Assembly: GCF_038561935.1 (NCBI RefSeq)
Contig: NZ_CP102770.1
Coordinates: 10,017,001 to 10,081,000, forward strand
Source: Myxococcus stipitatus
GTDB lineage: Bacteria > Myxococcota > Myxococcia > Myxococcales > Myxococcaceae
Direction: 5' to 3'
Length of the DNA stretch: 64,000 nt
In this document: positions 7,891 through 52,244 of the stretch, piece after piece
Layout: each line of letters begins with the position of its first letter
How positions within the stretch are numbered: position 1 is the stretch's first letter
Position numbers and translations under genes: made by a program
The notes under the pieces: generated by a model
What the model saw: the letters and a program-made list of their open reading frames with translations, nothing else
Databases searched by the model: none
Told to the model about the DNA's origin: nothing

Positions 7891-9441
7891 GTGAATACCC
7901 ACAGCGAATCCACGCAGCAGAATGCCCAGGAGCATGAGCGCTCCCAGGAGGCGATGGGGGCCGTGCGCAACGGCCTGCAGCTCGGAGGCTCGCTGCTGGT
8001 GACGTATGCGATTGCCTTCGGCATCCGTCCCCTGCTCACGCACTACCTGTCACCCGAGGACTTCGGTCGCTTCAACTGGGCGGACAGCTTCTCCGCCATC
8101 TTCTTCATCGCCACCAACCTCGGCCTGGAGATGTACATCCGCAAGGAGGTGTCGCGCCGGCCCGAGCACGCCAGCGACTTCTTCGGCACCTCCCTGCTCG
8201 TCCGGCTGGGCCTCACCGTCGTGTTGATGGGCGCGCTGACGCTCGTCATGTCCTACCGGGGTGACTCCCCGGAGATGCGCGCGCTGGTGCTCGTGTTCGG
8301 CCTGGCGCAGCTGCTCATCATGCTCAACGCGTCCATGGCGGCGTTGCTGCACGCCAAGGGCAAGGTGGCGGGGCTGTCCATCTCCAACGTCGTCACCAAG
8401 GTGGTGTGGGGCGGAGGCCTGCTCGCCGTCGGGGTGCTGCGCCTGCCGCTGCCCTGGCTGGCGGTGCCCGTCGTCGCGTCGGAGGCCATCAAGTTCGTGG
8501 TGGGCTGGCACCTGGCGCGCCAGCACATCGGCCTGGTCTTCCGTGTGGACCTGGCCGCCATGTGGAAGGTGCTCAAGGCGGGCCTGCCCTACTTCCTCAC
8601 CGCCGCGGCGCTGGCCACCAACGGGCGCCTGGACATCATGATTCTGGGGATGCTGGGCAGCCACGAAGAGGTGGGCTGGTACAGCGCCGCGTGGAGCATC
8701 TCCAACATCACCTTCGCGCTGAACCCCGTCATGGGCTGGGTGCTGCTGCCGCTCATGTCCCGCGCCGCCGCGCGCTCCGAGGAGGAGGTCAGCGTCATCG
8801 CCCGCCGCGCGCTGGAGGGCACGCTCGCCGTCACCGTCCCCATGATGATGCTCATCGTCATGGGCGCGCCGCTGTGGATTGGCCTGCTCGGCCGCGACTA
8901 CTCGCTCGCCGTCAACCTGCTGCGCCTCCAGTCGCCGCTCTTCGTCCTGGCCTTCGTGACGATGACGTGTGGCTCGTGGCTCACCATGACGAACCGCGAG
9001 TGGTGGGTGACGGGCACCAGCATCTTCGGCAGCCTGCTGCTCAACCCGCTGCTCAACCTGCTCCTCGTGCCGCGCATGTACGCCGCCTACGGCGATGGCG
9101 GCGGCGCCGCGGGCACCGCGCTGTCCATGCTGCTGATGGAGGTGGCCATCACCATCATCATGCTCAGCCGCATGGGCCGCTCCGCGGTGGACCGGCGGCT
9201 CTTGGTCATGGTGGCCAAGACGGCCGTCGTCTGCGTGGGCGTCGTCGCCATGGACCGCACGGTGCTCGCGCCGCTGGAGGATTGGCCCCGGCTGGCCGTG
9301 GAGGCCATGTTGTATGTCATGGGGGTGCTCACGCTGGGCGCGGTGCGGCCCGGTGAAGTCCTCGCGGTGGTGAAGCTGGCGCGCCGCCGTGGCAACCCCG
9401 AACCGGAGCCGGCGCCCATCGCCGTGGCTCCCACCCCCTGA
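7891..9441 (+). CDS. wzx: Wzx-type polysaccharide flippase
   Basis: Predicted to flip the lipid-linked EPS repeat unit across the inner membrane. The protein (516 residues from the GTG at 7891) shows the MATE/PST polysaccharide-export layout of about 12-14 membrane helices, opening with GGSLLVTYAIAFGIRPLLTH and LSPEDFGRFNWADSF, the usual N-terminal Wzx pattern. The start is uncertain: in-frame starts lie at 7819 (inside the hairpin loop), 7846 and 7891, and 7891 has GGGGGA about 12 bases ahead. The C-terminal 20 residues are Pro-rich and outside the membrane. It ends 16 bases before epsY, whose ribosome-binding site overlaps its stop. Confidence 0.85.
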   Translation: MNTHSESTQQNAQEHERSQEAMGAVRNGLQLGGSLLVTYAIAFGIRPLLTHYLSPEDFGRFNWADSFSAIFFIATNLGLEMYIRKEVSRRPEHASDFFGTSLLVRLGLTVVLMGALTLVMSYRGDSPEMRALVLVFGLAQLLIMLNASMAALLHAKGKVAGLSISNVVTKVVWGGGLLAVGVLRLPLPWLAVPVVASEAIKFVVGWHLARQHIGLVFRVDLAAMWKVLKAGLPYFLTAAALATNGRLDIMILGMLGSHEEVGWYSAAWSISNITFALNPVMGWVLLPLMSRAAARSEEEVSVIARRALEGTLAVTVPMMMLIVMGAPLWIGLLGRDYSLAVNLLRLQSPLFVLAFVTMTCGSWLTMTNREWWVTGTSIFGSLLLNPLLNLLLVPRMYAAYGDGGGAAGTALSMLLMEVAITIIMLSRMGRSAVDRRLLVMVAKTAVVCVGVVAMDRTVLAPLEDWPRLAVEAMLYVMGVLTLGAVRPGEVLAVVKLARRRGNPEPEPAPIAVAPTP

Positions 9442-10099: not shown

Positions 10100-11341
10100 G
10101 TGCTGGGGTCCGCGCTCACCGCGTTGTGGCTGGAGCTCTCCGCTTCCGCCATCACCTACTCCGCCTCCGTGCGGGTGGACTCGCGCGTGCGCTCCAACGA
10201 GGACCCCGCCCAGGACGCGCCCTCCATCGCCGGCGACACGGACTTCACACCCATCCTCGGCCTGGAGCGCACCCAGGGGAACACCGCCCTGGAGCTCAAC
10301 TACGCGCCGCGCATCAGCCTGCGCGAGGTCACTGCGGAGCCGCGCACAGAAGTACAGCACGTGGGCCGCTTCGCCGCGCGCTGGCGCCCCGAGCGCGGCC
10401 TCTCCTTCCGGCTGAGCGAGGAGCTGGTGCTGGGCAGCGTCAACCTGCTCACCATGGACTCGCTGCCGGTGCTCCAGCCGGACCCGGATGACCCGGACGG
10501 CCCGCTGCGCCCGCCCCCCGGAGGCGGTCCGCTCCAGCCCCTGCCGGAAGGGGACACCGTCTACTTCCTCTCCTCGGCCACCTCCCTCACCGGCGAGACG
10601 AGCCGACTGGGACGGCGCTGGCAGCTCTCCGGCACCGCGGGCTTCTCCGTCAGCGGCGGCCTGGATGGCCCCGCGCGCGAGGCCGTGCCCCTGCAGTACG
10701 GCCCGCGCATGGACGTGTCGCTGAGCCACGCCCTCTCGGAGCTCAGCGCCATCACCACCTCCGCCTCCGCCACGCACGCGCGCTTCTCCACCGGCGCGAG
10801 GAATACCGTCGTGACGCTCACCGAGAGCTGGACGGGCCGCATGTCCCGGCGCACCTCATTGGAGGCCGGCGCGGGCGCGAGCATCGTCCACTCCCTCGAG
10901 GCGACGGGCGGAGTCGCGCCAGACCCGGAGCCGGGCACGCCTCGCACGGAGCTGTTGCCCAACCTCACGCTCGCGGTGGGTCACCGCATCCCCTCTCGCA
11001 CGGCGGACTTCGACGGCCGCCTGGGTTTGCGCGTGTCGCCCTTCACCGACCGGCTGACGGCGCGCGTCTACCCTCGGGCGGACGTCACGGCGACGGGGAC
11101 GTGGGTGCTGAGCCCTCGCGTGCGCATGTCCGCCACGGCGGGCACCGCCTTCGCGGTGGGCGGGGCCACGGGGGACCGGCTGGTATCGGGCGGGTTGACG
11201 GCATCCTGGATTCTCAACAGTTGGATGTCGGTGGATGCCGACACGCGAGGCACCTGGAGCCGCTCGCCCGAGCTGCCAGCGGCCCGCTTCCAGTGGGCAG
11301 CGGCGCTGGGCCTGTCCTTGCGGCAAACTGGTATCCTCTGA
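10100..11341 (+). CDS. epsX: EpsX, outer-membrane beta-barrel for EPS export
   Basis: A 413-residue protein that starts at a GTG three bases after epsY. The whole length alternates polar and non-polar residues in the manner of long amphipathic strands (for example AFSLTARF-like runs such as NTALELNYAPRISLREV, WQLSGTAGFSVSGGL and TVVTLTESWTGRMSRRTSLE), ending in LGLSLRQTGIL. The first 20 residues form a weak signal sequence. In M. xanthus the equivalent barrel (WzpX) is proposed as the outer-membrane pore partner of the short OPX protein; the same pairing is inferred here from adjacency. Confidence 0.8.
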   Translation: MLGSALTALWLELSASAITYSASVRVDSRVRSNEDPAQDAPSIAGDTDFTPILGLERTQGNTALELNYAPRISLREVTAEPRTEVQHVGRFAARWRPERGLSFRLSEELVLGSVNLLTMDSLPVLQPDPDDPDGPLRPPPGGGPLQPLPEGDTVYFLSSATSLTGETSRLGRRWQLSGTAGFSVSGGLDGPAREAVPLQYGPRMDVSLSHALSELSAITTSASATHARFSTGARNTVVTLTESWTGRMSRRTSLEAGAGASIVHSLEATGGVAPDPEPGTPRTELLPNLTLAVGHRIPSRTADFDGRLGLRVSPFTDRLTARVYPRADVTATGTWVLSPRVRMSATAGTAFAVGGATGDRLVSGGLTASWILNSWMSVDADTRGTWSRSPELPAARFQWAAALGLSLRQTGIL

Positions 11342-41436: not shown

Positions 41437-42000
41437 ATGGCCAAGGTGCTGATTCTGGCTGGTGACGCGGCGGAGTCCCTGGAGGTGATGTACCCGTACC
41501 AACGGCTGCTGGAGGAGGGCTACGAGGTCCACCTCGCCGCCCCGTCGAAGAAGAAGCTCCAGTTCGTGGTGCACGACTTCGTGGACGGCTTCGACACGTA
41601 CACGGAGAAGCCCGGCTACACGTGGCAGGCGGACCTGGCCTTCTCGGAGGTGAACCCCGCCGACTACGTCGCCCTGGTCATCCCCGGTGGCCGCGCCCCC
41701 GAGTACCTCCGCAACAACGCCGACTGTCAGCGCATCGTCCGGTCCTTCTTCGAGCAGAACCGCCCCGTGGCCCACATCTGCCACGGCCCGCTGCTGCTCA
41801 CCGCCGCTGGCGTCCTCAAGGGCCGCAAGAGCGCCGCCTACCCCGCGCTGAAGCTCGACGTGCAGGGCGCGGGCGCGGAGTTCATCGACTCCGCCGCGGT
41901 CCTCGACGGGAACATGGTCTCCGCCCGCGCCTGGCCGGACCACCCCTCGTGGATGCGCGAGTTCATGAAGCTGCTGCGCGCCAAGGCCCCCGCGGCCTGA
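41437..42000 (+). CDS. DJ-1/PfpI family protein
   Basis: A 187-residue protein of the DJ-1/PfpI superfamily (proteases, glyoxalases and chaperones). The nucleophile elbow Cys is C115 in AHICHGPLLL, with the upstream Glu in VIPGGRAPEYL, and ends with a helix MREFMKLLRA. The ATG at 41437 with GGAGGCG ahead is preferred to an in-frame ATG at 41395. Divergent from the flavoprotein gene across 230 bases. The precise activity (glyoxalase/deglycase or other) cannot be decided from sequence. Confidence 0.87.
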   Translation: MAKVLILAGDAAESLEVMYPYQRLLEEGYEVHLAAPSKKKLQFVVHDFVDGFDTYTEKPGYTWQADLAFSEVNPADYVALVIPGGRAPEYLRNNADCQRIVRSFFEQNRPVAHICHGPLLLTAAGVLKGRKSAAYPALKLDVQGAGAEFIDSAAVLDGNMVSARAWPDHPSWMREFMKLLRAKAPAA

Positions 42001-42009
42001 CGTCTTGAC

Positions 42010-42043
42010 GCCAGGGCCCGCTCCCGCCGAAGTGGGCCCTGGC
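42010..42043 (+). terminator. 10-bp perfect hairpin after the PfpI gene
   Basis: GCCAGGGCCC (42010-42019) pairs with GGGCCCTGGC (42034-42043) over a 14-base loop, ten bases past the stop. It also falls before the likely ATG of the next gene, arguing against a start at 42005. Confidence 0.5.
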
Positions 42044-42061
42044 GGCCGTCCCCGCCCCACC

Positions 42062-42814
42062 ATGTCCGAGGACTCCCCCACGCCCCCCAGGAGGACAGCG
42101 CTCGACACGTCGGTCCCCGACTTCGACATGCCCTTCCCCCAGATGCTCGCCGTGCGCGTCTGGAGCGTGCTGTTGGAGGTCATCACCCGGCTGGGGGACC
42201 TGCTGGTGCTCGTCCTCCGTCCGCGCCTCGTCCCGCCCTACCTGAGCCTCTGGCTGCGCGAAGCACTCGCCTCCCCCTACCGCGCGCGTCGCTCGTTCGA
42301 CGTGGTCCGCGTCCTCCACGCCAGCCAGCAGCACTTCCGGGAGCTCATCTACGGGGAGACGCCCATCCACACCGCCGTGTGGCTCTTCAAGAAGGCGGGC
42401 CTCACCTCCTCGTCCCAGCTGGTGGACCTGGGCGCGGGCCGGGGCCGCGTGCTCCTCGCCGCGCGCTGGATGGGCGCCCGGGCCCGAGGCATCGAGCTGT
42501 TGGAGCAGCACGTGACGCTCGCCTCGGGGCTGGCGCGCCGGGCCGGCGCGGAGCTGCGCCAGGGGGACGCCACCCAGGCCGACCTGGGCGACGCCACCCA
42601 CGTCTTCATCAACTGGACCGCGCTGTCCCCCGAGACCCGGGAGCGCATCGTCGAGCGCCTGCGCACCTGCCGCCCCGGCACCCGCGTCCTCACCGTCACC
42701 CGCCCCGTGGAGGGCCCGGGCTTCACCCTCCTCTCCCGGCACTCGCTCCTCTTCACCTGGGGCGTGGAGCACGTCTGGATTCACGAGCGGTGCGCCCCCG
42801 GGGATGCGCTTTGA
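42062..42814 (+). CDS. class I SAM-dependent methyltransferase
   Basis: A 250-residue protein with a hydrophobic, probably membrane-associated segment near residues 30-65 (VWSVLLEVITRLGDLLVLVL), then a Rossmann-type methyltransferase domain: motif I VDLGAGRGRVLLAAR, acidic loop RGIELLEQH, RQGDATQADLGDATHVF and FINWTALSPE. The arrangement resembles DOT1-like/protein-lysine or small-molecule methyltransferases anchored at the membrane. Target unknown. An alternative upstream TTG (42005) would place the start before a strong hairpin and is less likely. Confidence 0.78.
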   Translation: MSEDSPTPPRRTALDTSVPDFDMPFPQMLAVRVWSVLLEVITRLGDLLVLVLRPRLVPPYLSLWLREALASPYRARRSFDVVRVLHASQQHFRELIYGETPIHTAVWLFKKAGLTSSSQLVDLGAGRGRVLLAARWMGARARGIELLEQHVTLASGLARRAGAELRQGDATQADLGDATHVFINWTALSPETRERIVERLRTCRPGTRVLTVTRPVEGPGFTLLSRHSLLFTWGVEHVWIHERCAPGDAL

Positions 42815-43009
42815 GATGCAAACACTCCAGCCCGGGCACGGGTGGACCCGACTCCCGCGTGGCTTCCTCTCGTGGCGGCTCCATGCCTAGGCTCGCCGGC
42901 TCGATGCCGGTCGGACGGGTCCGCCTCCCCCCGGGGCGCGCCCTCCTCACTACCGGATGACTCAGGTCCCCGGGCCCATGGGCCGAGGGGCACACAGGAG
43001 CAGGCTCAC

Positions 43010-43291
43010 ATGAAGGCATGGATGGCCGTGGCGATGCTGGCGGTGGTTCCCCTGGTCGGTTGCGGTGGCTCGCGCGAGCTGAACCGCGCGCGCGCCGAGT
43101 CGAACGTGCTGCGCAAGGACGCCGAGTCGCTGCGCGCGGAGAACGAGGCGCTGAAGACCAAGGTGTCCGAGCTGGAGGGGGAGCTGGCCAACGTCTCGAA
43201 GGAGCGCGACGAGCTGAAGGTCGCCGCGGAGCAGGCCGCCGCCGCTCCGGCCGTGGTCCCCGCCGCCGGTGGCAAGAAGCGCAAGAAGTAG
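43010..43291 (+). CDS. small coiled-coil lipoprotein
   Basis: A 93-residue lipoprotein: signal MKAWMAVAMLAVVPLVGC with lipidated C18, then a heptad-patterned helix (LRAENEALKTKVSELEGEL) of about 50 residues, and a basic tail KKRKK. The layout is like Lpp or SlyB-type periplasmic spacers, and the terminal Lys run could touch peptidoglycan. ATG at 43010 with CAGGAGCAGG ahead. The 195 bases before it show no clear element. A hairpin follows the gene. Confidence 0.75.
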   Translation: MKAWMAVAMLAVVPLVGCGGSRELNRARAESNVLRKDAESLRAENEALKTKVSELEGELANVSKERDELKVAAEQAAAAPAVVPAAGGKKRKK

Positions 43292-43317
43292 TCCCCGTCT
43301 CCCAGGGAGCATTCCGG

Positions 43318-43343
43318 CGTGTCGGAGCGTTCGGCCCGACACG
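43318..43343 (+). terminator. hairpin after the small lipoprotein gene
   Basis: CGTGTCGG (43318-43325) pairs with CCGACACG (43336-43343) over a ten-base loop, 27 bases past the stop. It separates the lipoprotein gene from the sigma-54-like promoter at 43408. Confidence 0.4.
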
Positions 43344-43407
43344 TCGGAGGCCCTGTCGGAAGCGCCCCTCGTGAGGCGCGCCCAGGGCACCTCGGGCCAC
43401 ATGCGCC

Positions 43408-43423
43408 CGGCACACCCACTGCA
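43408..43423 (+). promoter_or_regulatory. candidate sigma-54 (-24/-12) promoter
   Basis: CGGCAC-ACCCA-CTGCA matches TGGCAC-N5-TTGCW at 9 of 11 positions, with the essential GG (43409-43410) and GC (43421-43422) exactly ten bases apart. It lies 74 bases before the beta-sandwich gene at 43497, which is followed by a sigma-54 activator gene. At this GC content some chance matches are expected. Confidence 0.45.
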
Positions 43424-43496
43424 CTGACGGACGGGCACCCAGGGCAATCCAGCCCCGGACGCGGCCAAGCCAGCGCCGCGCTCGCAGGAGTGCGCC

Positions 43497-43889
43497 ATGC
43501 CTGAAGTGACCATCGACAAGCCCGCGCAGCCGCAAGCCTCTCCCCAGACGACGGAGAGCCTGACGGCGACACTCGTCAACCAGACCCAGGGCAACCTGGT
43601 GCTCGTGAAGTCGGCCAGCGGGCTGCAGTGGACCCGCCCGCCTCCGGCCACCATCTCCCCGGGCCAGTCCGGGCAGTTCGCCAGCCCCGGGGACTTCAGC
43701 AACCCGTCCTCGGGCTACGTCGTCTACCAGTCCTCCTCCGCGGGCAGCGCGACCTTCACCCTCTCCTGGACCATCCCCTCCATCGGCCCCAACAGCATCA
43801 ACTGGCAGACGACCCCGGGGCTCAGCGCGCAGGAGAGCGGCTCGTTGAGCGGGTGGAACCTGTCCGCCGCCTGGTTCATCAGCGGGTGA
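43497..43889 (+). CDS. small beta-sandwich protein, possibly aegerolysin/ET79-like
   Basis: A 130-residue protein without signal peptide or Cys, rich in Ser, Gln, Pro and Trp. After about 20 disordered residues (Pro/Gln-rich) come beta strands LTATLVNQTQGNLVLVKS, the Trp-Thr motif GLQWTRPPPATI, GYVVYQSS, ATFTLSWTIPS, ending WNLSAAWFISG. The pattern recalls small beta-sandwich proteins of the crystal protein ET79/aegerolysin kind, which bind membranes, but I am not sure. It has a sigma-54-like promoter upstream and lies 76 bases before the activator gene, perhaps in one transcript. Confidence 0.6.
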   Translation: MPEVTIDKPAQPQASPQTTESLTATLVNQTQGNLVLVKSASGLQWTRPPPATISPGQSGQFASPGDFSNPSSGYVVYQSSSAGSATFTLSWTIPSIGPNSINWQTTPGLSAQESGSLSGWNLSAAWFISG

Positions 43890-43965
43890 GGACATGCCGG
43901 TGAGCGCCGGGTCCGCGCTCCTCGCTCATGGCTGGGCTAGAGTCCCGAGGCCCAGGTCCACCACC

Positions 43966-45603
43966 ATGTCCCCCACGCTCGCCGATGTCTCCACCGCCGC
44001 CGTGCCGGAGCGGGGCGGCGGCCCGAAGGGGCCACACCTCGTCCCGGCCCTCACCGTCATCTCCCATCCCGTCCCCCGCCGCGTCGGGGAGCGGCTGCGG
44101 CTGGACGCGCTCGCGGCGGGACGGGAGGTGGCCCTGTCCCGCAACGGGCCGGACTTCCACCCGCCCGGCACCGCGCGGGGACAGCCGCTGAATGACCCGT
44201 TCATCAGCCGCAAGCCGCTGGTGTTCTCCCCGGGCTCGCGCCCTGGGAGCGTGCGGCTGACGAGCCAGGACGGCGGCACCCAGGTGGCCATCGCCGGCTC
44301 CACGCTGGAGGGCACGTGGGAGCTGTCCGCGAGCGAGCTGGCCGCGGGAGTCCCGCTGGAGCTGGGCCAGCGCGTGGTGCTGCTGCTCCACCTGGTGGAG
44401 GCGACGGACGAGGCCCCGACGGCGGACACGCTGGGCATGGTGGGCGAGAGCACGGGTGTCCGCCGCCTGCGCCGCCACATCGAGCGCGTGGCGGACCTGG
44501 ACGTGCCCGTGCTCATCCGCGGTGAGACGGGCACGGGCAAGGAGCGCGTGGCCCAGGCCATCCACCAGCGCAGCCGGCGGCGCTCGGGCCGCTTCCTCTC
44601 CGTCAACCTGGGCGCCATTCCGAAGGAGCTCGCCGCCGCCGAGCTGTTCGGGACACAGAAGGGCGCGTACACGGGCGCGACGCAGGGCCGCGAGGGCTTC
44701 TTCCGCGCCGCGCACGGAGGCACCCTCTTCCTGGACGAAGTGGGCGAGGCCCCGCCCGAGGTACAGGTGATGCTCCTGCGGGTGCTGGAGACGGGCGAGC
44801 TGTACCCCGTCGGAGGCTCCACCCCCATCGCCGTGGACGTGCGGCTGCTCGCCGCGACGGACGCGGACCTGGATGAGCGCATCCGCGACGGGCGCTTCAA
44901 GGCGCCGCTGCTGCACCGGCTGGCGGGGTACGACCTCCACGTGCCTCCGCTGCGGGAGCGGCGCGAGGACCTGGGGCGCCTGTTCTTCCACTTCGCCCGC
45001 GAGGAGCTGGCGACGCTGGGCGAGGCACACCGGCTGGACAACGAGGACGCCTACGCGGAGCCCTGGTTGTCCGCGGCGCTCGCGACGCGGCTGGTGCGCT
45101 TCCAGTGGCCCGGCAACATCCGGCAGCTGCGCAACCTCGCGCGGCAGCTCGTCATCGGGAGCCGAGGACAGCCCAGCCTCCAGGCCGAGCCCCGACTGGA
45201 GCACGAGCTGGAGCTCGCCGCCGCCGCCAGGCCCGGCGCCGCGGTGGCGGCCGAGGCGCGCTTCGGCACCGCCCACGCCGAGGCCCCCCTGGAGGCGCGC
45301 ACCTCACCGCGACGCAAGGCCTCCCAGGTGACGGAGCAGGAGCTGCTCGCCGCGCTGCGGGAGCACGCGTGGGACTTGAAGGCCACCGCCGAGGCGCTGG
45401 GGATTCCGCGCCCCTCGCTCTACGACCTCATCGACAAGAGCCCGAACCTGCGCACCGCCGGGGACTTGAGCACGGAGGAAATCACCCGCGCCTTCGAGGC
45501 CCACGGAGGTGACCTGGACGCGATGGCGCGAGGGCTCGAGGTGTCCCGGCGCGCCCTGGGCCGGCGACTGAAGGAGCTGGGCCTCACGCCTCGCGCGGAG
45601 TGA
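43966..45603 (+). CDS. FHA-containing sigma-54-dependent transcriptional activator
   Basis: A 545-residue enhancer-binding protein. Residues about 40-145 form a divergent FHA domain (LSRNGPDFHPP, LNDPFISRKPLVF), which would read Thr phosphorylation by a Ser/Thr kinase. The AAA+ domain (150-395) has Walker A GETGTGKE at 186-193, GAYTGA at 233-238 in place of GAFTGA, Walker B LFLDEVGE at 254-261 and arginine-finger region FKAPLLHRLAGYDLHVPPLRER. Two Fis-type helix-turn-helix units follow (about 455-500, SLYDLI; and 502-545, RRALGRRLKELGL). Such FHA activators are common in myxobacteria. Start at ATG 43966. Confidence 0.88.
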   Translation: MSPTLADVSTAAVPERGGGPKGPHLVPALTVISHPVPRRVGERLRLDALAAGREVALSRNGPDFHPPGTARGQPLNDPFISRKPLVFSPGSRPGSVRLTSQDGGTQVAIAGSTLEGTWELSASELAAGVPLELGQRVVLLLHLVEATDEAPTADTLGMVGESTGVRRLRRHIERVADLDVPVLIRGETGTGKERVAQAIHQRSRRRSGRFLSVNLGAIPKELAAAELFGTQKGAYTGATQGREGFFRAAHGGTLFLDEVGEAPPEVQVMLLRVLETGELYPVGGSTPIAVDVRLLAATDADLDERIRDGRFKAPLLHRLAGYDLHVPPLRERREDLGRLFFHFAREELATLGEAHRLDNEDAYAEPWLSAALATRLVRFQWPGNIRQLRNLARQLVIGSRGQPSLQAEPRLEHELELAAAARPGAAVAAEARFGTAHAEAPLEARTSPRRKASQVTEQELLAALREHAWDLKATAEALGIPRPSLYDLIDKSPNLRTAGDLSTEEITRAFEAHGGDLDAMARGLEVSRRALGRRLKELGLTPRAE

Positions 45604-45644
45604 CGCGCGGCGCTGGGGACTTGCGTGTCCCGCGCGGAAGCTCG

Positions 45645-45660
45645 TGGCATGACGTGTGCT
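45645..45660 (+). promoter_or_regulatory. candidate sigma-54 (-24/-12) promoter
   Basis: TGGCAT-GACGT-GTGCT fits TGGCAC-N5-TTGCW at 9 of 11 positions (10 if the sixth may be T), with GG (45646-45647) and GC (45658-45659) ten bases apart. It lies 42 bases after the activator gene and 43 before the Cys-rich protein gene. It is the best of the sigma-54-like sites in the window. Confidence 0.55.
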
Positions 45661-45702
45661 CATGCCCACGCGGGTCCATTCGTGTCACAGGGAAGGTGAA
45701 AC

Positions 45703-46251
45703 ATGAGGAAGGCGATTGCAGTCGCAAGCGTGTTGTCTGTCGCGGGGTGGTGGGCTTGCGCGACCCGGACGGGAGTGGAGGCCCCCACGCCTCGGCAGGA
45801 GGCGCGGCTGTCGGGTGATGACGCGTGCCAGTGCGCCTCGGACCCGTGTCCGGATGACGGCGGGACGAACTGCCTGGACATCTCCGTGAGCCTCAACGCC
45901 TCGGGGAAGAAGAAGTTCAGCCCCGGCTGCGACTCCCACGGTTGGAAACTGTGCGCGGGACAGCAGGTGATCATCAGCTCCGAGCTGAGCCAGGACCTCT
46001 GCGTCGACCTCATCAGCACGAGCGGCGACCCGGACGGCGGTTCAGGGAGCCGGGTGTCCCTGTCGAGCGGCTCCTCCTGGACCCCCTCCACGCTCACCGC
46101 GGGCGAGTACTGCCTGAGCGTCTGCAACAAGAACGGCACCGACTGCTCCCAGGGTTGCAAGAAGTCGGACTGCGAATCCGACGAGGCGACCATCCGAGGG
46201 AACATCGACGTCGTCACCAAGGGGCCCACCGAGCCCGAAGAGAGACGCTGA
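45703..46251 (+). CDS. Cys-rich secreted protein
   Basis: A 182-residue exported protein. The signal (MRKAIAVASVLSVAGWWAC) ends in a possible but atypical lipobox at C19. The mature part holds about twelve more Cys, in clusters CQCASDPCPDDGGTNC, SPGCDSHGWKLC and CLSVCNKNGTDCSQGC, indicating a disulfide-rich extracellular fold, plus beta-strand-like runs (QQVIISSELS). Function unknown. It sits directly downstream of the sigma-54 activator gene behind a sigma-54-like promoter and ends 27 bases before a convergent kinase gene. Confidence 0.72.
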   Translation: MRKAIAVASVLSVAGWWACATRTGVEAPTPRQEARLSGDDACQCASDPCPDDGGTNCLDISVSLNASGKKKFSPGCDSHGWKLCAGQQVIISSELSQDLCVDLISTSGDPDGGSGSRVSLSSGSSWTPSTLTAGEYCLSVCNKNGTDCSQGCKKSDCESDEATIRGNIDVVTKGPTEPEERR

Positions 46252-46278
46252 GCCCTCGGCGTCGAGGCTTCGAGCGGA

Positions 46279-49200
46279 CTACCGCGAGACGGCGGCGGCT
46301 CCGCTCGAAGCGGTGAGCCACCGCCCCCACTCCTTCAGCAAGTGCCGGTTGTCGTCGAGCGCGCGGGACAACAGGGCTCGCGCCTGACGCTCGGGCTCCG
46401 ACTCACCCCGGCCCGCCTCCGAGGCCGAAGCCGAGGCAGCCAAGGCCAGCGCCAGCCCCGCGCGGAGGGCTCGCGCACGAGGCCACTCGGCGCGCAGGGA
46501 CAGGGCCTTGTCCACGTGCGAAAGCCCTCGCTCCAGCACCGGCCTGCCTCCCGGAGCCAGGCCCCGCTCCAGGCAGAAGCGCCCGAGCGCCACGAGGTGC
46601 TCGGGCTGCGAGGGCTCCAGCTCGACGGCGCGCAGGAAGGCCTGCTCCGCCTCCGTGAAGTCCTCCTCCCGCGCCTTCGCGCGGGCTTGGACCGCCAGCG
46701 CGTCCCCCAGGACACGCCATGCCTGTGCCTGCTTGGGGTTGAGCTCCAGCGCGCGGCGCAGGGACGTCAGGGCCTCCTCCAGCGCGGGGCCCGGCGGGTG
46801 GCCTTGCCTCAGGGCCCACGCGGCCTCGGCCTGGAGCGCGGTGCCCAGGTTCATCCAGGGCTGCGGCAGGTCGGGGATTCGCGCCAAGGCGTCCTTCAGC
46901 GCCGAGCGCGCGGCGAGCACCTCCCCCGCCGGCGACTGTCCTTCCAGCACGCGCATCGTCGCGCGCCAGGCGTGGACCTCGCCCACGTTGTTCTGCCCGT
47001 AGCCCTGCGCGGGGGCCAGGGCGATGGCGCCATCGAACGCCTTCAGGGCCTCGCGCAGCGCGGGCTCCACGTCCTCGCCTCGCTCCCAGGCGTCCTTCGC
47101 GCGCTCGAACCAGACGGTGCCCAGGCCGTTGTGCAGCGGCGGCAGCTTCGGGTTGATGGCCACGCCCTTCTCGTAGGCGGTCAGGGCGCTCGCCAGCGCG
47201 GGCTTTGGATCCACTCCCGTGTCGCGGTGTCGCGCGGCGCGAGCCAGGTGCACCTCGCCCGCGTAGAACCATGGCGCGATGTGCGCGGGATTGATGGACT
47301 GCGCGCGCTCCAGCGCCGCCGCGGCCTTGTCCAGGTCTCCCGAGGGGTCCACGGCTCGCGGATGCGAGGCACGGGCGAGGTACTCGGTGCCCAGGTTGAT
47401 CCACGCCTCCGGCCGGAGCGCGTTGATGGCGACGGCGCGCTCGTGTGCGGCAATCGCCTTCTCGCGATAGGGCAGGGAGTCGCCCCCCCCGCCCTCTTCG
47501 TGGTCCGCCCAGACGCGGAACACCTGCCCCACGTCCGCGTGGAACTCGTAGTCGCGGGCCTCGGCGGGGATGCGCTCGAAGGCGGCGGCGGCCTCGCGCA
47601 GCGAGTCGCGTGGGTCCATCCCCTTCTCCTGCCGGAAGCGCGCCCGCTGCCAGTGGACGACGGCCAGCTCATGCAGGACCTTGGGCAGGTCCGGACGCAG
47701 CTCCACCGCGCGGCGCGCGGACACCAGGGCCTTCTCCAGCACGGGCTCCACGTCGCTCCCCTGGCGCGACTGGTGCTCCGCGAGGCGGCGGTGAAAGCCC
47801 GCCAGCAGCGAGTGGGCCTCCGCGTCGTCGGGCGCCAGGGCCAGGGCCTTCGACGCGGCCTCCACGCCTCGCGCGTGATGGAGCGGAACATCCCCTTGTC
47901 CGTAGAGCGCCACCAGGAGCGCCCATCCCTCCAGCTGCGCGAGCGCGCGATACACCGCGGGGACACTGCGGCCGATGTCCGCCGCGTGGGCATAGGCCCG
48001 CCGCGCCTCGTCGAAGTCCGAGAGTGCCCCCTCGCGGCTCCCCGTGTTCCACCGGCTGGAGCCTCGCAGCAGCAGGGTGTCGCCGCGGAGCAGCGGGGCC
48101 TCGTGGAACCAGGGCAGGCGCGAGCCCAGCGCGTCCAGCTTCGCCAGGGCCTCCTCGGGGCGGTTCTCGAGGAAGGCCAGCAGCGCGGCGACGTACTCGG
48201 GGGCCGGGACCTCCGCGCCCTCGCTCTTGCGAAGGAAGTCGCGAGCGGGCGCGCCGTAGCGCTGGGTGGCCTCCCGCAGCCGGGCCTCGCGCGTCGCCGC
48301 GTCCTGCTGCCGCTCCGCCTCCAGGCGGGCCTGCTGGTACAGGTGCGCCAGGGCCAGCGCCAGCGAGTACGCCACGCGAGGCTCCGTGGCGCCCGCCTTC
48401 CACGCGGCCTCCAGGTGCTCCCGCGCCCGGGCATCGTCATCGAGCGCGAGGTAGCCGCGCCCCAGCGCGTAGTGGCCCGAGGCCACCCCCATCGGCCCCG
48501 CGTCGCGCATCGCGGTCTCCAGCTCGCGCATCCGCGCGCCCAGGGCCTCGCGGTCCCGACGCGTGTCATGCGGGGGCGAGGTGCCGGAGTAGCGGGCCTG
48601 CGCCTCGATGCGCTCCACCTGCTCCGTGAAGCGGCGGGCCAGGGCCTCGCGCTGGGAGACCTCCCCGCGCGCGAGCACCGACTGCCCCACGGCCAGGGAC
48701 ACCACGACGAGGGCGCCCGTGCCCACGGCGACGGCGCGGCGGTGCTTGCGCAGCCACTTGCGCGCGCGATAGCCGGGCCCGGTGCGAGCGAGGACAGGCT
48801 CGCCGTCGAGGAAGCGCCCCAGGTCCTCCGCCAGCTCGCGCGCCGAGCCGTAGCGCGCGGAGCGGTCCTTCTCCAGGCACTTGAGGGTGATGGCCTCCAG
48901 GTCCACGGGGATGTCGCGGTCCAGCGCGCGAGGCGGCCGAGGCTCCACCGTGCCGATGTTGCCCAGCACCTCCAGGCCGTTCTGCCCGGGGATGGGCGGT
49001 GTCCCGGTCAGCAGCGCATAGAGCGTGGCGCCCAGGCTGTAGACATCCGCGCGCCGGTCCAGCCGGGCCACCTCGCCGCGAGCCTGCTCCGGTGACATGT
49101 AGTGCGGCGTGCCGAGCACGGTGCCCGTCGCGGTGACGCCCTCCTTCCAGTCGCGAGCGAGTCCGAAGTCCATGACGAAGGGCGACAGCGCCCCCTCGGC

Positions 49201-49929
49201 GGTCTGCTCCACCAGGATGTTGGAGGGCTTGATGTCGCGATGGATGAGCCCCGCGCGGTGGGCGGCGTGGACCCCCTCCGCGGCCTCGCGCAGCACGCGG
49301 GCCTTCTGCTCGACGCTGAGCGTCTCCACGAGCGCATGCAGCGGCCGTCCCTCCACGTACCGCATGGCGATGTAGGCGCGGCCCTGGACCTCGCCGACCT
49401 CGTACACCTCGCAGACGCGCGGGTGTGTCACACGCGCCTGGGCCCGGGCCTCCAGGATGAACCTGCGGGCCAGCTCCGGCTCGTCTCCGCGCACGAACTT
49501 GAGCGCGACCTGGCGATGCAGCCGGTTGTCCCTCGCGAGGAACACCCGGCCCATGCCGCCCTGCCCCAGGAAGCGGATGGGGGAGTAGTGCTCCCAGTCG
49601 GAGACAGGAAAGGCAGGCACCTCCACGGGGGGCGGAGGAGAGACCGGGGCGAGGCCCTTCTCCAGCGACAGCGTCGCGTCCCTGCCAGGCGCATGTCGCC
49701 CCGTGTCCACGGTCACCGGAGCCACGGGGCTTCGCGTGTCCTCCTCGCGCAGCATGAGCCGCAGGAGGGAGGCATGGGTGTCCTCGGACAGCCGGCCGCG
49801 CTCCTTCAGCAGCTCCAGCGGCCTGCGGCCCAGACGCGCCGCCTCCGAGCGCAAGGCGTCACACTCCTCACGCGAGAGGAGTCCTTCCGCGAGTGCATGG
49901 CGCAGCTCGACCTCGTCTTGCTCGCTCAT
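46279..49929 (-). CDS. Ser/Thr protein kinase with long TPR region
   Basis: A 1216-residue kinase. Residues 1-60 are helical; the kinase domain (about 115-385) has GQGGMGRVF at 122-130, Lys K144, HRDIKPSN with D232, DFGLARD and TPHYMSPEQARG. A single membrane helix near 410-435 (VAVGTGALVVVSLAVGQSVL) is followed by about 780 residues of TPR-like helical repeats (for example YALGRGYLALDDDARAREH, LNPKQAQAWRVLGDAL, LEPSQPEHLVALGRF). ATG at 49929 has GAGGA five bases ahead. The frame is open upstream to 50181 without family likeness. It lies between two genes with sigma-54-like promoters and near an FHA activator it might phosphorylate. Confidence 0.87.
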   Translation of the reverse strand: MSEQDEVELRHALAEGLLSREECDALRSEAARLGRRPLELLKERGRLSEDTHASLLRLMLREEDTRSPVAPVTVDTGRHAPGRDATLSLEKGLAPVSPPPPVEVPAFPVSDWEHYSPIRFLGQGGMGRVFLARDNRLHRQVALKFVRGDEPELARRFILEARAQARVTHPRVCEVYEVGEVQGRAYIAMRYVEGRPLHALVETLSVEQKARVLREAAEGVHAAHRAGLIHRDIKPSNILVEQTAEGALSPFVMDFGLARDWKEGVTATGTVLGTPHYMSPEQARGEVARLDRRADVYSLGATLYALLTGTPPIPGQNGLEVLGNIGTVEPRPPRALDRDIPVDLEAITLKCLEKDRSARYGSARELAEDLGRFLDGEPVLARTGPGYRARKWLRKHRRAVAVGTGALVVVSLAVGQSVLARGEVSQREALARRFTEQVERIEAQARYSGTSPPHDTRRDREALGARMRELETAMRDAGPMGVASGHYALGRGYLALDDDARAREHLEAAWKAGATEPRVAYSLALALAHLYQQARLEAERQQDAATREARLREATQRYGAPARDFLRKSEGAEVPAPEYVAALLAFLENRPEEALAKLDALGSRLPWFHEAPLLRGDTLLLRGSSRWNTGSREGALSDFDEARRAYAHAADIGRSVPAVYRALAQLEGWALLVALYGQGDVPLHHARGVEAASKALALAPDDAEAHSLLAGFHRRLAEHQSRQGSDVEPVLEKALVSARRAVELRPDLPKVLHELAVVHWQRARFRQEKGMDPRDSLREAAAAFERIPAEARDYEFHADVGQVFRVWADHEEGGGGDSLPYREKAIAAHERAVAINALRPEAWINLGTEYLARASHPRAVDPSGDLDKAAAALERAQSINPAHIAPWFYAGEVHLARAARHRDTGVDPKPALASALTAYEKGVAINPKLPPLHNGLGTVWFERAKDAWERGEDVEPALREALKAFDGAIALAPAQGYGQNNVGEVHAWRATMRVLEGQSPAGEVLAARSALKDALARIPDLPQPWMNLGTALQAEAAWALRQGHPPGPALEEALTSLRRALELNPKQAQAWRVLGDALAVQARAKAREEDFTEAEQAFLRAVELEPSQPEHLVALGRFCLERGLAPGGRPVLERGLSHVDKALSLRAEWPRARALRAGLALALAASASASEAGRGESEPERQARALLSRALDDNRHLLKEWGRWLTASSGAAAVSR

Positions 49930-50099
49930 CTTCGTCCTCACACCCCGGAAGCCGCGTCGCGGAGCGTAGCGAAGCCACCCCACGCCGTCGAAGCCCGCGA
50001 GGGGCCTGACATGTCGGACGACACGTCGCCCCGCGCTCGCGACACAGGGCGCGCGGTGGCAACTCCGCGTCGTCACTCGGGAGTCCTCCTCGCGGCTCC

Positions 50100-50115
50100 T
50101 GGCCCGGGGGCTGCA
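50100..50115 (+). promoter_or_regulatory. candidate sigma-54 (-24/-12) promoter
   Basis: TGGCCC-GGGGG-CTGCA matches TGGCAC-N5-TTGCW at 9 of 11 positions, with GG (50101-50102) and GC (50113-50114) ten bases apart, 56 bases before the lectin ATG. The G-run spacer is low-complexity, so chance is a real possibility. The rest of 49930-50170 shows nothing else clear. Confidence 0.4.
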
Positions 50116-50170
50116 ATCCCAGTCAGCACGCGCGCTCGGCAGGGCGCGCGCACAACCCAGGAGACAAACC

Positions 50171-50599
50171 ATGTCCAACACGGCGACGTTCCAGTTCGCG
50201 GGTGGCTCGAAGGTGTACGTCCAGGCGCTGGCGAACGCGGGCTACACGCAGCAGGTGACCATCAGCCCTCCCTCGGGGAGCGCGGCGGTGTTCCAGGGCT
50301 CGGGCGAGGGGAACGTGACGATGCCGCTCACCACGCAGGGCTTCCTCACGGCGGGCAGCAACGGAGGACAGGCGTCCTTCACGGTGCCGGGCTCGGGCAG
50401 CCAGCTCAGCACCTACAAGGTCGCGGTCTCCTACAACAAGGGCAGCGGGTTCCAGCCCAGCAACGTGGAGGGCAACAGCAGCACCTTCACCACGCCCGCG
50501 GGCGGGCAGCTCGTCGTCGGCGTGGTCAGCTCGGAGGACGCCACCGACAACGACTACAACGACGGCGTGGTGTACTTCACGCTCTACCCCGCGCTGTGA
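50171..50599 (+). CDS. LecB (PA-IIL)-family calcium-dependent lectin
   Basis: A 142-residue beta-sandwich lectin without signal peptide. The calcium/sugar-binding loop SSEDATDNDYNDGVV (residues 120-134) is almost identical to the GSEDGTDNDYNDAVV loop of Pseudomonas PA-IIL, giving ligands E122, D126, D128, N130 and D131; N22 in LANAGYTQQ matches the other calcium ligand. The specificity triplet after it reads A-G-Y instead of S-S-G. The chain ends YPAL rather than in the Gly whose carboxylate helps bind calcium in PA-IIL. It should bind fucose- or mannose-type sugars. AGGAG lies ahead of the ATG. Confidence 0.87.
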   Translation: MSNTATFQFAGGSKVYVQALANAGYTQQVTISPPSGSAAVFQGSGEGNVTMPLTTQGFLTAGSNGGQASFTVPGSGSQLSTYKVAVSYNKGSGFQPSNVEGNSSTFTTPAGGQLVVGVVSSEDATDNDYNDGVVYFTLYPAL

Positions 50600-50611: not shown

Positions 50612-50639
50612 GTGACACGGGCCTGTGTCCCCGTGTCAC
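50612..50639. terminator. 10-bp perfect hairpin between convergent lectin and DUF1152-like genes
   Basis: GTGACACGGG (50612-50621) pairs with CCCGTGTCAC (50630-50639) over an eight-base loop, 12 bases past the lectin stop and overlapping the stop of the convergent gene. Suited to both directions; no T-run. Confidence 0.5.
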
Positions 50640-51205
50640 ACCGGGATGTCCTTCCACGGGCGGACAGGACGCGCGGCGCGGAATGCCTCGATGATGAGGT
50701 GCATCTGCGCCTGCGTCGTCGTGTCCTTCAGCGCCTCCAGGTACAGGCAGCGCCGGGCCACGGCCATCAGGTCGAAGGCCCAATACATGCTCATCAGCGG
50801 GTTGATCCACAGCGTGCTGCCCCGCGTGCGCTCCGTCCGGTGTATGTCGCCATAGTCGCCCTCCAGCGCGGACACCACGGAGAGGGACACGATGCTCGGC
50901 GCGCGAGGCATCCGCTGCTCACCCCGCCGCGCGAACCAGCGCGAGAGCCACCCCTCGGGGAAGTAGTGCTCGGGCCCCTCCGTGGACGCCTCCACCTGGA
51001 GAACACCCGGAACGGGCCAGGTGCCTTGGACCTGGGAGAGCTGGGTGAAGCTGAGGTTCGCCAGCGTCACCGTCTTGCCCAGCTCGTGCAGCCGGAAGTA
51101 CAGCGGCAGCCCGCTGAACACGTCGAAGCCGCCCCCACCTCCAGCGATGAGGACATGACGGGCGGGCGCAAGCCGCTCCATCAACGGCGAGGTGAACAGG
51201 TCCAT
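50636..51205 (-). CDS. DUF1152-like protein
   Basis: A 189-residue protein beginning MDLFTSPLMERLAPA. The Gly-rich segment HVLIAGGGGGFDVFSGLPLY followed by VTLANLSFT matches the opening of the DUF1152 family, which looks like a nucleotide-binding fold but has no known reaction. It is shorter than typical members (about 300 residues), so it may be a reduced form. The frame is open upstream to 51310, but the ATG at 51205 opens the conserved part. Divergent from the cyclodeaminase-family gene by 79 bases. Confidence 0.7.
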   Translation of the reverse strand: MDLFTSPLMERLAPARHVLIAGGGGGFDVFSGLPLYFRLHELGKTVTLANLSFTQLSQVQGTWPVPGVLQVEASTEGPEHYFPEGWLSRWFARRGEQRMPRAPSIVSLSVVSALEGDYGDIHRTERTRGSTLWINPLMSMYWAFDLMAVARRCLYLEALKDTTTQAQMHLIIEAFRAARPVRPWKDIPV

Positions 51206-51284
51206 GCCCGAATCCTCTCCGGCCACCGGGGAGGACACCACCCACACGGCGCGGCCCTGGCGCCTTCCGCTATAACGCGCCGCC

Positions 51285-52244
51285 ATGTCCACTCTCATCC
51301 TCAGCGCCAAGGAGCTGCGCGGCCTCTACACCGTCCAGCTTGGCCTCGACGCCGTCGAGCGGGCCTTCCGGGCCCACGGCCGCGGCGAGTCCCTCATGCC
51401 TCCCAAGGTGTACCTCTCGCTGCCGCAGTACGACGGCGACTTCCGCGCCATGCCCGCGTTCCTCGACGGCGCGGCCGGAGTGAAGTGGGTCAACGCCCAT
51501 CCCCAGAACCCCAGGAAGCACGGCCTGCCCACCGTGCGCGCCCTCTACATCCTCAGCGACCCCGACACGGCGTCGCCCCTGGCCATCCTCGACGGCACCC
51601 TCCTCACCGCGTGGCGCACTGGCTGCGCCGGCGGCGTGGCCTCCAAGTACCTGGCGAAGCCCAAGCCCCGCACCCTCGGGCTCGTCGGCTGCGGCGTCCA
51701 GGCCCGCGTCCTCATCGACGCCCACCGCGCCCTCTTCGGCGAGCTGGAGCTGCTCCTCGCCGACACCTCCGAGGCCGCCGCCAAGGCCCTCCAGGCCGAG
51801 AAGGGCGGCCGCGTCGTCAGCCTCCAGGAAGCCTCCGGCGCGGACATCGTCTGCACCTCCACCCCCTCCCGCACCCCCGTCGTGAAGCGCGAGTGGCTCA
51901 AGCCCGGCGCGCACATCAACGCCATGGGCGCGGACGCCCCCGGCAAGCAGGAGCTGGACGCGCGCATCCTCACCGAGGGCCGCGTCTTCATCGACGACAC
52001 CGAGCAGGCCCTCCACTCCGGCGAGGTCAACGTCCCCCTCCACGACGGCCTGCTGAGCGCCGAGCACATCGCCGGAACCCTGGGCGAAGTCGTCGCCGGC
52101 AAGAAGCCCGGCCGCGCCGGTGACGAGGTCACCGTGTTCGACTCCACCGGCCTCGCCCTCCAGGACGTCGCGCTCGCCCGCGCCCTCTACGAGGTCGCCC
52201 GCGCCAAGGGCGTCGGCCAGTCGCTCGACATCGTCGGCGGCTGA
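51285..52244 (+). CDS. ornithine cyclodeaminase/mu-crystallin family NAD(P)-dependent enzyme
   Basis: A 319-residue enzyme of the OCD/mu-crystallin family (ornithine cyclodeaminase, alanine dehydrogenase, ketimine reductase). The substrate domain has VYLSLPQYDGDFRAMPAFL and the conserved Lys in GVKWVNAHPQN; LDGTLLTAWRTGCAGGVASKYL precedes the Rossmann motif LGLVGCGVQARVLIDA; later GADIVCTSTPSRTPVV and GAHINAMGADAPGKQELD match the family. The exact substrate is not readable. A hairpin follows. Confidence 0.9.
   Translation: MSTLILSAKELRGLYTVQLGLDAVERAFRAHGRGESLMPPKVYLSLPQYDGDFRAMPAFLDGAAGVKWVNAHPQNPRKHGLPTVRALYILSDPDTASPLAILDGTLLTAWRTGCAGGVASKYLAKPKPRTLGLVGCGVQARVLIDAHRALFGELELLLADTSEAAAKALQAEKGGRVVSLQEASGADIVCTSTPSRTPVVKREWLKPGAHINAMGADAPGKQELDARILTEGRVFIDDTEQALHSGEVNVPLHDGLLSAEHIAGTLGEVVAGKKPGRAGDEVTVFDSTGLALQDVALARALYEVARAKGVGQSLDIVGG

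Follow-up and report, generated by a model that had tools for sequence, protein, structure and literature searches.

We examined a 64,000-nt stretch of the genome of Myxococcus stipitatus (the window; positions 10017001–10081000 of contig C1 in the 10.17-Mb genome G000, where G and L are our labels for genomes and loci). A preliminary description of this DNA had placed three small genes there, each preceded by a −24/−12-like site, with an FHA-type sigma-54 activator and a 1216-aa Ser/Thr kinase lying between them. All five genes were located in the window and are referred to here as ACT (activator), BS (beta-sandwich), CYS (Cys-rich), KIN (TPR kinase) and LEC (lectin). Comparison with related loci identifies the region as one copy of a cassette, made up of an activator, a membrane kinase and small genes, that is repeated among the Myxococcaceae. 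We consider it quite probable that the cassette forms a circuit, in which a signal from KIN would reach ACT through its FHA domain, and ACT would then act from tandem palindromes on the −24/−12 promoters of the small genes. The features concerned are as follows, in window positions:

43315–43324, no strand: first copy of the BS enhancer, imperfect, CGGCGTGTCG, 22 nt before the second copy
43337–43346, no strand: BS enhancer palindrome, CGACACGTCG
43407–43423, plus strand: predicted BS promoter, CCGGCACACCCACTGCA, 60 nt after the enhancer
43497–43889, plus strand: BS, a 130-aa beta-sandwich-type protein
43966–45603, plus strand: ACT, a predicted sigma-54 activator of 545 aa (FHA, AAA+ with GAYTGA, two Fis-type HTH)
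45644–45660, plus strand: predicted CYS promoter, GTGGCATGACGTGTGCT
45703–46251, plus strand: CYS, Cys-rich, with a signal peptide, an invariant Cys19 and a possibly cupredoxin-like domain
46279–49929, minus strand: KIN, a Ser/Thr kinase of 1216 aa with TPR in its C-terminal half, convergent with CYS
50007–50028, no strand: LEC tandem enhancer in the KIN–LEC interval, TGACATGTCG / CGACACGTCG, with 12 nt from start to start
50099–50115, plus strand: predicted LEC promoter, CTGGCCCGGGGGCTGCA, 70 nt after the enhancer
50171–50599, plus strand: LEC, a 142-aa PA-IIL/LecB-like lectin

The reading frame of ACT probably begins at 43966 and not at 43894, since orthologous frames align from the former position. 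Its product matches the AAA+ profile Sigma54_activat (PF00158, E = 1.6e-59) and, in two stretches, the Fis-type DNA-binding domain (PF02954, E = 7e-13), and its GAYTGA motif, a loop of the GAFTGA type, is conserved across an alignment of 69. The genome also carries rpoN (one PF04552 match, E = 7.3e-64). With these components ACT has the make-up of a sigma-54 enhancer-binding protein, and would presumably activate promoters as such. The named relatives of ACT belong chiefly to Myxococcus, Pyxidicoccus, Corallococcus, Citreicoccus and Archangium.

The FHA domain that the preliminary description had assigned to the activator between BS and CYS is backed by predicted structure, although the Pfam FHA profile gives no match for ACT even at E = 1. 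An AlphaFold2 model of the region (mean pLDDT 76) retrieved FHA domains in each of the first 14 rows of a Foldseek search (best E = 8.5e-4, the sole row below 0.001), and VIA gave Z scores of 12.2 to ArnA, 11.7 to DgcB and 10.9 to EmbR, with 125 chains at Z of at least 8. The model thus supports the presence of an FHA fold in ACT. Arg59 and Ser81, which we take to be phosphothreonine-site residues of that fold, are invariant in 19 of 19 sequences.

Comparisons were made over 69 loci from eight genera, consisting of the window and 68 others (12 orthologous and 56 paralogous) that were picked by their activator regardless of neighbouring genes. A match to the activator family was set at E = 1e-100 or better, with up to 15 candidates scored per genome, and orthologues of ACT at an identity of at least 77%; the latter are present in 16 other genomes, and 12 of these loci were studied. 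The family as a whole occurs in 66 of 96 Myxococcaceae genomes and 10 of 26 genera, with at least one to seven copies per genome. A convergent (tail-to-tail) KIN homologue follows ACT in 63 of the 69 loci, across a gap with a median of 674 nt that is at most 1700 nt in 54 of 63. A coding-like frame of 75–260 aa on the ACT strand lies in 54 of these gaps, while the frame filter gave none in nine. Many of the gap proteins resemble CYS in having a short beta-rich domain that ends in GxLxVxT; by eye, some carry signal peptides and many do not. The order of activator, small gene and kinase is therefore conserved in related genomes, where the preliminary description had proposed to look for it.

KIN itself appears to be an intact membrane kinase. 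The catalytic Lys, HRD-Asp and DFG-Asp of Hanks-type kinases are invariant in all 58 homologues compared (five of the 63, truncated by the end of the stretch, were omitted), and in each of them a hydrophobic stretch follows the kinase domain; in KIN this stretch lies within residues 390–434 and probably spans the membrane. The distance matrices of ACT and KIN are closely correlated in a mirror-tree comparison, with r = 0.888 over the 58 cassettes and r = 0.883 when only the 45 that do not belong to the window clade are used; in both sets, 0 of 2000 permutations reached the observed value.

Some variants of the cassette deserve mention. Small cassette proteins at L034 (6652–7230) and L035 have a long Lys/Ala-rich, histone-H1-like tail preceding the beta domain, and in the gaps of L040, L042, L053, L055 and L057 the small gene is present in tandem copies, several of which have a palindrome pair and a −24/−12 site of their own. 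A cassette on a Polyangium sp. 15x6 contig (L210; ACT 61% and KIN 53% identical) could reflect either transfer or contamination.

Promoter sites were scored against a 12-letter consensus, YTGGYAYRN5TGCW, in which the GG and the GC were obligatory. On both strands of the 64-kb window only five sites score at least 11, and three of them are the BS, CYS and LEC promoters; the remaining two are at 47761 (antisense, inside KIN) and 56865 (minus strand). With a plainer consensus, TGGCACGN4TTGCW, the window holds 33 sites of at least 9 of 12, which bears out the caution in the preliminary description that single GG-N10-GC sites are frequent at this G+C content. The BS site is kept in all 12 orthologous loci (scores of 10–12) amid diverged upstream DNA, and the CYS site, likewise amid diverged DNA, in 10 of 12; L029 and L031 form the exceptions, and in both the first small gene is more than 900 nt past ACT, behind two opposite-strand genes. 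The LEC site is kept solely in the near-identical genome G013 and is weaker evidence than the other two. We take the three proposed sites to be real, given their place among so few high-scoring sites in the window and the conservation of those of BS and CYS; the expectation that the sites would be conserved in orthologues held for these two. The lectin gene of G008 (L023), considered as a conserved member of the regulon, was dropped, as its promoter and first ~15 codons are deleted; its tandem enhancer remains, at 11168 of the reversed locus.

The same signal is found across the wider set of loci. In the 63 gaps between ACT and KIN (six of the 69 loci have no KIN in reach; the nine gaps longer than 1700 nt were trimmed to 900 nt), the best coding-strand site scores 11 or 12 of 12 in 38, against 0 of 63 on the opposite strand. 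Control searches at twelve other spacer lengths found a site in 0 to 5 gaps, save for 11 gaps at a spacer of 1, which we ascribe to the repetition of TGC within CTGGTACGGTGCCTGCA. These 38 sites are not independent events, as the loci are related, and the paralogues form many separate lines on the tree. The consensus had been broadened from TGGC to TGGY after CTGGTACG sites were seen (under the narrower form these still score 11), so that the count was not blind; the strand and spacer controls share the same consensus. A single-locus shuffle of the CYS gap gave p values of only 0.005–0.05 in those members of the window clade where the site is present. The preliminary description had proposed to judge the sites against shuffled sequence. 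Over many loci they outnumber those on the opposite strand and at other spacer lengths, and shuffling favours them only modestly at single loci.

Upstream of BS and LEC lies a palindrome of the form [C/T]GACRYGTC[G/A], which is found in tandem at spacings of whole helical turns and mostly ~60 nt before a promoter. The element CGACNNGTCG (of CGACRYGTCG type) occurs at three places in the 64 kb, at 43337 (BS), at 50019 (LEC) and at 42103 inside a neighbouring coding region, and it is present 607–651 nt ahead of ACT in all 12 orthologous loci, six of which have two perfect copies 21–22 nt apart at the BS tandem position. The 69 loci (824 kb) contain 192 GACRYGTC palindromes, 41 of them within the 160 nt that follow ACT (11 kb in total). 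In a control that compared 24 palindromes of like composition, the runner-up reached 6 in those 160 nt, and the number of close pairs was 49 for GACRYGTC and 10 for the next best. Pairs up to 70 nt apart have spacings exclusively of 11–12, 19, 21–23, 30–33 and 42–43 nt, that is, approximately whole helical turns. Distances from a palindrome to a coding-strand site of at least 10 within 250 nt (n = 73) are similarly clustered, with 65 at 38–39, 48–50, 58–63, 69–73 or 78–82 nt and 42 of those 65 at 58–63 nt. At a period of 10.5 the Rayleigh R is 0.91 for the pairs and 0.73 for the 65 distances (the eight outside 36–84 nt being omitted), with p values that are overstated by the relatedness of the loci. 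The shared enhancer points to a common activator for BS and LEC, and ACT would be the protein that binds these palindromes.

Sites on the minus strand were also noted. Sites of 11–12 of 12 lie 71–91 nt from a palindrome upstream of ACT in L064, L084 and L088 and near the 3' end of KIN in L064 and L077; those upstream of ACT in L064 and L088 point to a secreted protein that is crystallin-like by eye.

In the 44 of 69 cassettes that have a tandem or promoter-linked palindrome, the outer base of the palindrome corresponds to a residue in the first HTH of the activator (Y-D-L versus Y-V-L, and others). Where this residue is Asp, C exceeds T in 26 of 26 cassettes; where it is another residue, an excess of C is seen in 0 of 18, and the single Glu cassette has evenly mixed outer bases. 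We offer this match as a pattern and not as a statistic. The family has two representatives in the present genome, one for each type (the ACT of the window and that at C1:8484852, L033), and the differing palindromes may keep their two circuits apart.

When the palindrome-plus-promoter pattern was searched for in four close genomes, three places besides BS recurred in all four, and that of LEC in two. One of the three (L114) was set aside, as it has a central CT/TT instead of RY and lies inside an open coding frame; another place inside a coding frame (L110) recurs in two of the four genomes. The other two are upstream of distant genes:

G000 C1:7229279: a gene for a 137-aa beta-sandwich-type protein, with tandem palindrome and promoter
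G000 C1:9896298: a class-3 lipase gene (PF01764, E = 3e-16), with tandem palindrome and promoter

The gene for the 137-aa protein is present in five of 27 genus genomes, and all five copies have the tandem palindrome and promoter. Close orthologues of the lipase (at least 67% identity) occur in 13 of the 27, of which 12 also have an orthologous ACT, and in all 12 the tandem palindrome and promoter precede the lipase; in the remaining one, G085, the lipase (79%) has neither palindrome nor promoter, and the ACT relatives among the matches listed reach only 62–64%. The pattern itself had found four of the 12 lipases and four of the five 137-aa genes, which leaves eight and one, respectively, as independent cases. 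Both genes are likely members of the ACT regulon. A 22-nt tandem at C1:6692252 was not counted as a target, since it has no −24/−12 site in reach; this tandem (L155, 4252–4283), like one at L162 (4257–4288), stands before an apparent other Ser/Thr kinase gene. In one of the four genomes only (L163; G014 C1:9150620), a hydrolase-like gene is preceded by a palindrome and, 58 nt on, a site that scores 10 of 12.

For KIN itself, no minus-strand site of at least 10 lies within 250 nt of the KIN/LEC enhancer in the window. In the relative L021 a site of 10 for KIN is 178 nt from this enhancer, and 5' of KIN in L063 a tandem palindrome lies 37 nt from a minus-strand site (8819–8835) that points toward the kinase gene. 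The L063 site is a hint that some kinases may share the regulon of ACT.

A conserved gene set, enhancers and promoters in helical phase, a correspondence between enhancer and activator, and intact kinases are all evident in the aligned sequences, and they can be accommodated in a single mechanism. KIN would sit in the membrane with its catalytic domain in the cytoplasm and its TPR half probably in the periplasm, from where it might sense something outside the cell, and would phosphorylate a threonine on itself or on a partner. The FHA domain of ACT might then read the phosphothreonine, releasing the AAA+ engine. Dimers of ACT bound to tandem CGACRYGTCG on one face of the helix would contact the sigma-54 polymerase at a −24/−12 promoter, mostly ~60 nt off. 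The outputs would be BS together with ACT (which would constitute positive feedback), CYS, LEC and at least two distant genes, for the 137-aa protein and the class-3 lipase. In paralogous cassettes, a palindrome of the TGAC..GTCA/C kind paired with a changed recognition-helix residue could insulate parallel circuits from one another. Signalling from KIN to ACT by way of the FHA domain is suggested by their co-evolution and by the FHA fold. The kinase–activator–lectin circuit of the preliminary description is supported in its promoters and its gene order, and the enhancer that we found ties BS and LEC to one activator; the lectin has to be demoted, being by its distribution a recent and non-conserved member of the regulon and not part of its core, which consists of the small genes between activator and kinase, CYS among them.

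Several observations speak against this proposal, or at least against its generality. In the FHA domain of ACT, SRKP replaces SxxH (with loss of the His), and DGGT or EDGT replaces the Asn before GT; the missing His and Asn make canonical phosphothreonine binding less assured and leave the assignment of the fold unaffected. No site of at least 11 was found in 25 of the 63 gaps, and 25 of the 69 cassettes have no qualifying palindrome. In the window, CGACNNGTCG is absent directly upstream of the CYS promoter, so that activation of CYS would require a degenerate site or else the enhancer of BS, at a distance of 2.3 kb. Eight of the 73 coding-strand distances are off-cluster (2, 8, 107–108, 218 and 247 nt), and the minus-strand pairs of palindrome and site (n = 18) are spread from 37 to 227 nt. 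A looser tally of all palindromes near ACT blurs the recognition pattern, as 4 of 86 half-sites in Asp cassettes are not C (A or G), those in Val cassettes comprise 5 C (the exceptions), 17 G and 32 T of 54, and a Met cassette (L078) has a C-type palindrome. The enhancer type changes only about twice on the tree, giving one or two independent pairs, which is not significant. The pattern search of the four close genomes returned 38 matches, versus 48 for its reversed control. All of these loci are related by descent, and the counts and Rayleigh values therefore overstate their independence.

The alternative that we take most seriously, while thinking it unlikely, is that the sigma-54 circuit is real and KIN is not its upstream switch: KIN would be a mere neighbour, and ACT would be set by its own level (through feedback) or by another kinase. 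The link between KIN and ACT, as regards both phosphosite and contact, is drawn from sequence, the half of KIN that adjoins CYS evolves on its own, and the FHA domain of ACT is without two of the usual phosphothreonine-site residues, all of which would suit such an arrangement. It would be harder to reconcile with the position of KIN after ACT in 63 of 69 loci and eight genera, with the invariance of its catalytic residues in all 58 kinases and with the correlation between the two proteins. It is considerably less probable that some other regulator uses the palindromes as its operator and only happens to flank these genes, with the −24/−12 sites served by other activators. The genome has no shortage of these (118 candidates, of which 44 were scored and all 44 matched), yet the outer base of the palindrome tracks the recognition helix of the cassette's own ACT, the palindrome of the lipase tracks the presence of an orthologous ACT, and the distances from palindrome to −24 element are phased as those of enhancers are. 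Chance is a third account at 70% G+C, where GG-N10-GC sites and palindromes are expected, and the 33 window sites under the plain consensus and the single-locus shuffle values for the CYS gap lean its way; we regard it as extremely improbable in view of the strand and spacer controls (38 versus 0–11 gaps), the conservation of sites in orthologues, the control with 24 palindromes and the helical phasing.

Individual parts of the proposed circuit have counterparts elsewhere. EmbR of Mycobacterium tuberculosis, whose structure is among the fold matches of ACT, is controlled by a Ser/Thr kinase and would resemble ACT as an FHA-bearing transcription factor that reads such a kinase; it differs in that it is not known to be a sigma-54 activator. 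In M. xanthus, mbhA is a sigma-54-controlled hemagglutinin (lectin) gene with an upstream element; like LEC it is a lectin gene under a sigma-54-like promoter, although its product belongs to another lectin family, and we know of no link between mbhA and an FHA activator. FHA-domain sigma-54 activators were reportedly described in M. xanthus by Jelsbak, Givskov and Kaiser in 2005 (PNAS 102:3010), under a title that names fruiting-body development; to judge by that title, they resemble ACT in joining an FHA domain to a sigma-54 activator, and they come from similar bacteria. In the Nla28 regulon of M. xanthus, according to PMC7910581, activator dimers occupy tandem repeats (half site CT(C/G)CG(C/G)AG) upstream of −24/−12 promoters, typically at 80–150 bp, and Nla28 is part of a two-component system. 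The use of tandem repeat sites upstream of −24/−12 promoters is common to both; the cassette differs in its FHA domain, its GACRYGTC palindrome mostly ~60 nt from the promoter and its neighbouring Ser/Thr kinase. Myxobacterial Ser/Thr kinase genes display micro-synteny, conserved neighbours and duplication (Perez et al. 2008, as summarised in PMC8538405); the part of that summary that was available describes no regulatory code and no small-gene outputs, unlike the cassette. Within the accessible portions of the open-access literature we found no description of the cassette, its palindrome or the specificity switch. FHA activators, tandem enhancer sites and kinase micro-synteny are thus already known, and the cassette with its palindrome and specificity switch appears, within that same literature, to be new.

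Myxobacteria possess very many Ser/Thr kinases and sigma-54 activators, and the links between them are mostly obscure. Here, sequence alone yields a kinase, its likely activator, a likely DNA word, spacing rules and a list of targets, and a one-residue specificity switch would explain how a single cell could operate several copies of the cassette in parallel.

CYS and the TPR half of KIN appear to diversify together. When the window is compared in 250-nt blocks with its nearest relative, G013, identity is 91–99% from 41500 to 45500, falls to 63–88% from 45750 to 48500 (CYS and the TPR half), and returns to 93–98% from 48500 to 49750 (the kinase end) and to 96–98% over LEC. Against G014, identity is 84–97% over CYS and the TPR half and 71–94% over the kinase end. 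Differences from the closest genome amount to 37% in CYS, 22% in the TPR half and 3% in ACT and the kinase domain. Among 11 orthologues (two of the 13 window-clade loci, with split KIN matches, were omitted), CYS distance tracks TPR distance when the kinase domain is controlled for (partial r = 0.63; 0 of 2000 permutations), does so less when ACT is (partial r = 0.38; 20 of 2000), and has no association with the kinase domain given the TPR half (partial r = −0.02). With its signal peptide and Cys19, CYS could encounter the TPR half in the periplasm. We raise, as a speculation that is probably wrong, the idea that they are a co-diversifying ligand–receptor pair kept together by the tail-to-tail layout, with the cassette acting as a polymorphic switch for recognition of self, kin or neighbours. 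If so, a Cys-rich surface protein would tune a receptor kinase whose output through the FHA activator includes that same protein, the lectin and the lipase. Linked loci for a receptor kinase and a Cys-rich ligand, similar in kind, underlie plant self-incompatibility. A plain alternative, in which CYS and the TPR half are linked in one recombination tract, explains the pattern too. The CYS–TPR block may help to find out what a kinase of this sort senses.

The products of the small genes can be characterized in part. BS has no signal peptide by eye and no family match above cut-off; a relationship to antibody light chains, which provided its sole sequence matches among solved structures (E of at least 0.15), was rejected as chance. 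It is possibly co-transcribed with ACT, which lies 76 nt downstream, and is found in 14 of 27 genus genomes, being missing from three of the 17 that have an orthologous ACT. CYS, the least conserved cassette gene among the orthologous loci, is by eye probably lipidated at Cys19. Its model (mean pLDDT 71) bears a moderate resemblance to cupredoxins, which fill most of the 50 rows listed, at Z scores of only 7.4–8.7 and low Foldseek TM-scores, and a 21-sequence alignment of CYS-type proteins contains no invariant His, Cys or Met apart from the start Met. LEC matches PF07472 (E = 4.9e-7; 30.5 bits versus a cut-off of 21) and solved LecB chains (E = 1e-4, chiefly over residues 95–136), and has the calcium/sugar loop DNDYNDG of a putative sugar binder; it is carried by three of 27 genus genomes and is absent in G014. 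Judged by eye, the N-termini of BS, LEC, the lipase and the 137-aa protein show no clear signal peptide, a trait shared with some known myxobacterial surface proteins. Beyond LEC, a minus-strand frame of 224 aa (50636–51310) is without ~126 central residues of its relatives in L021, L024 and others, as seen from two matches 378 nt apart.

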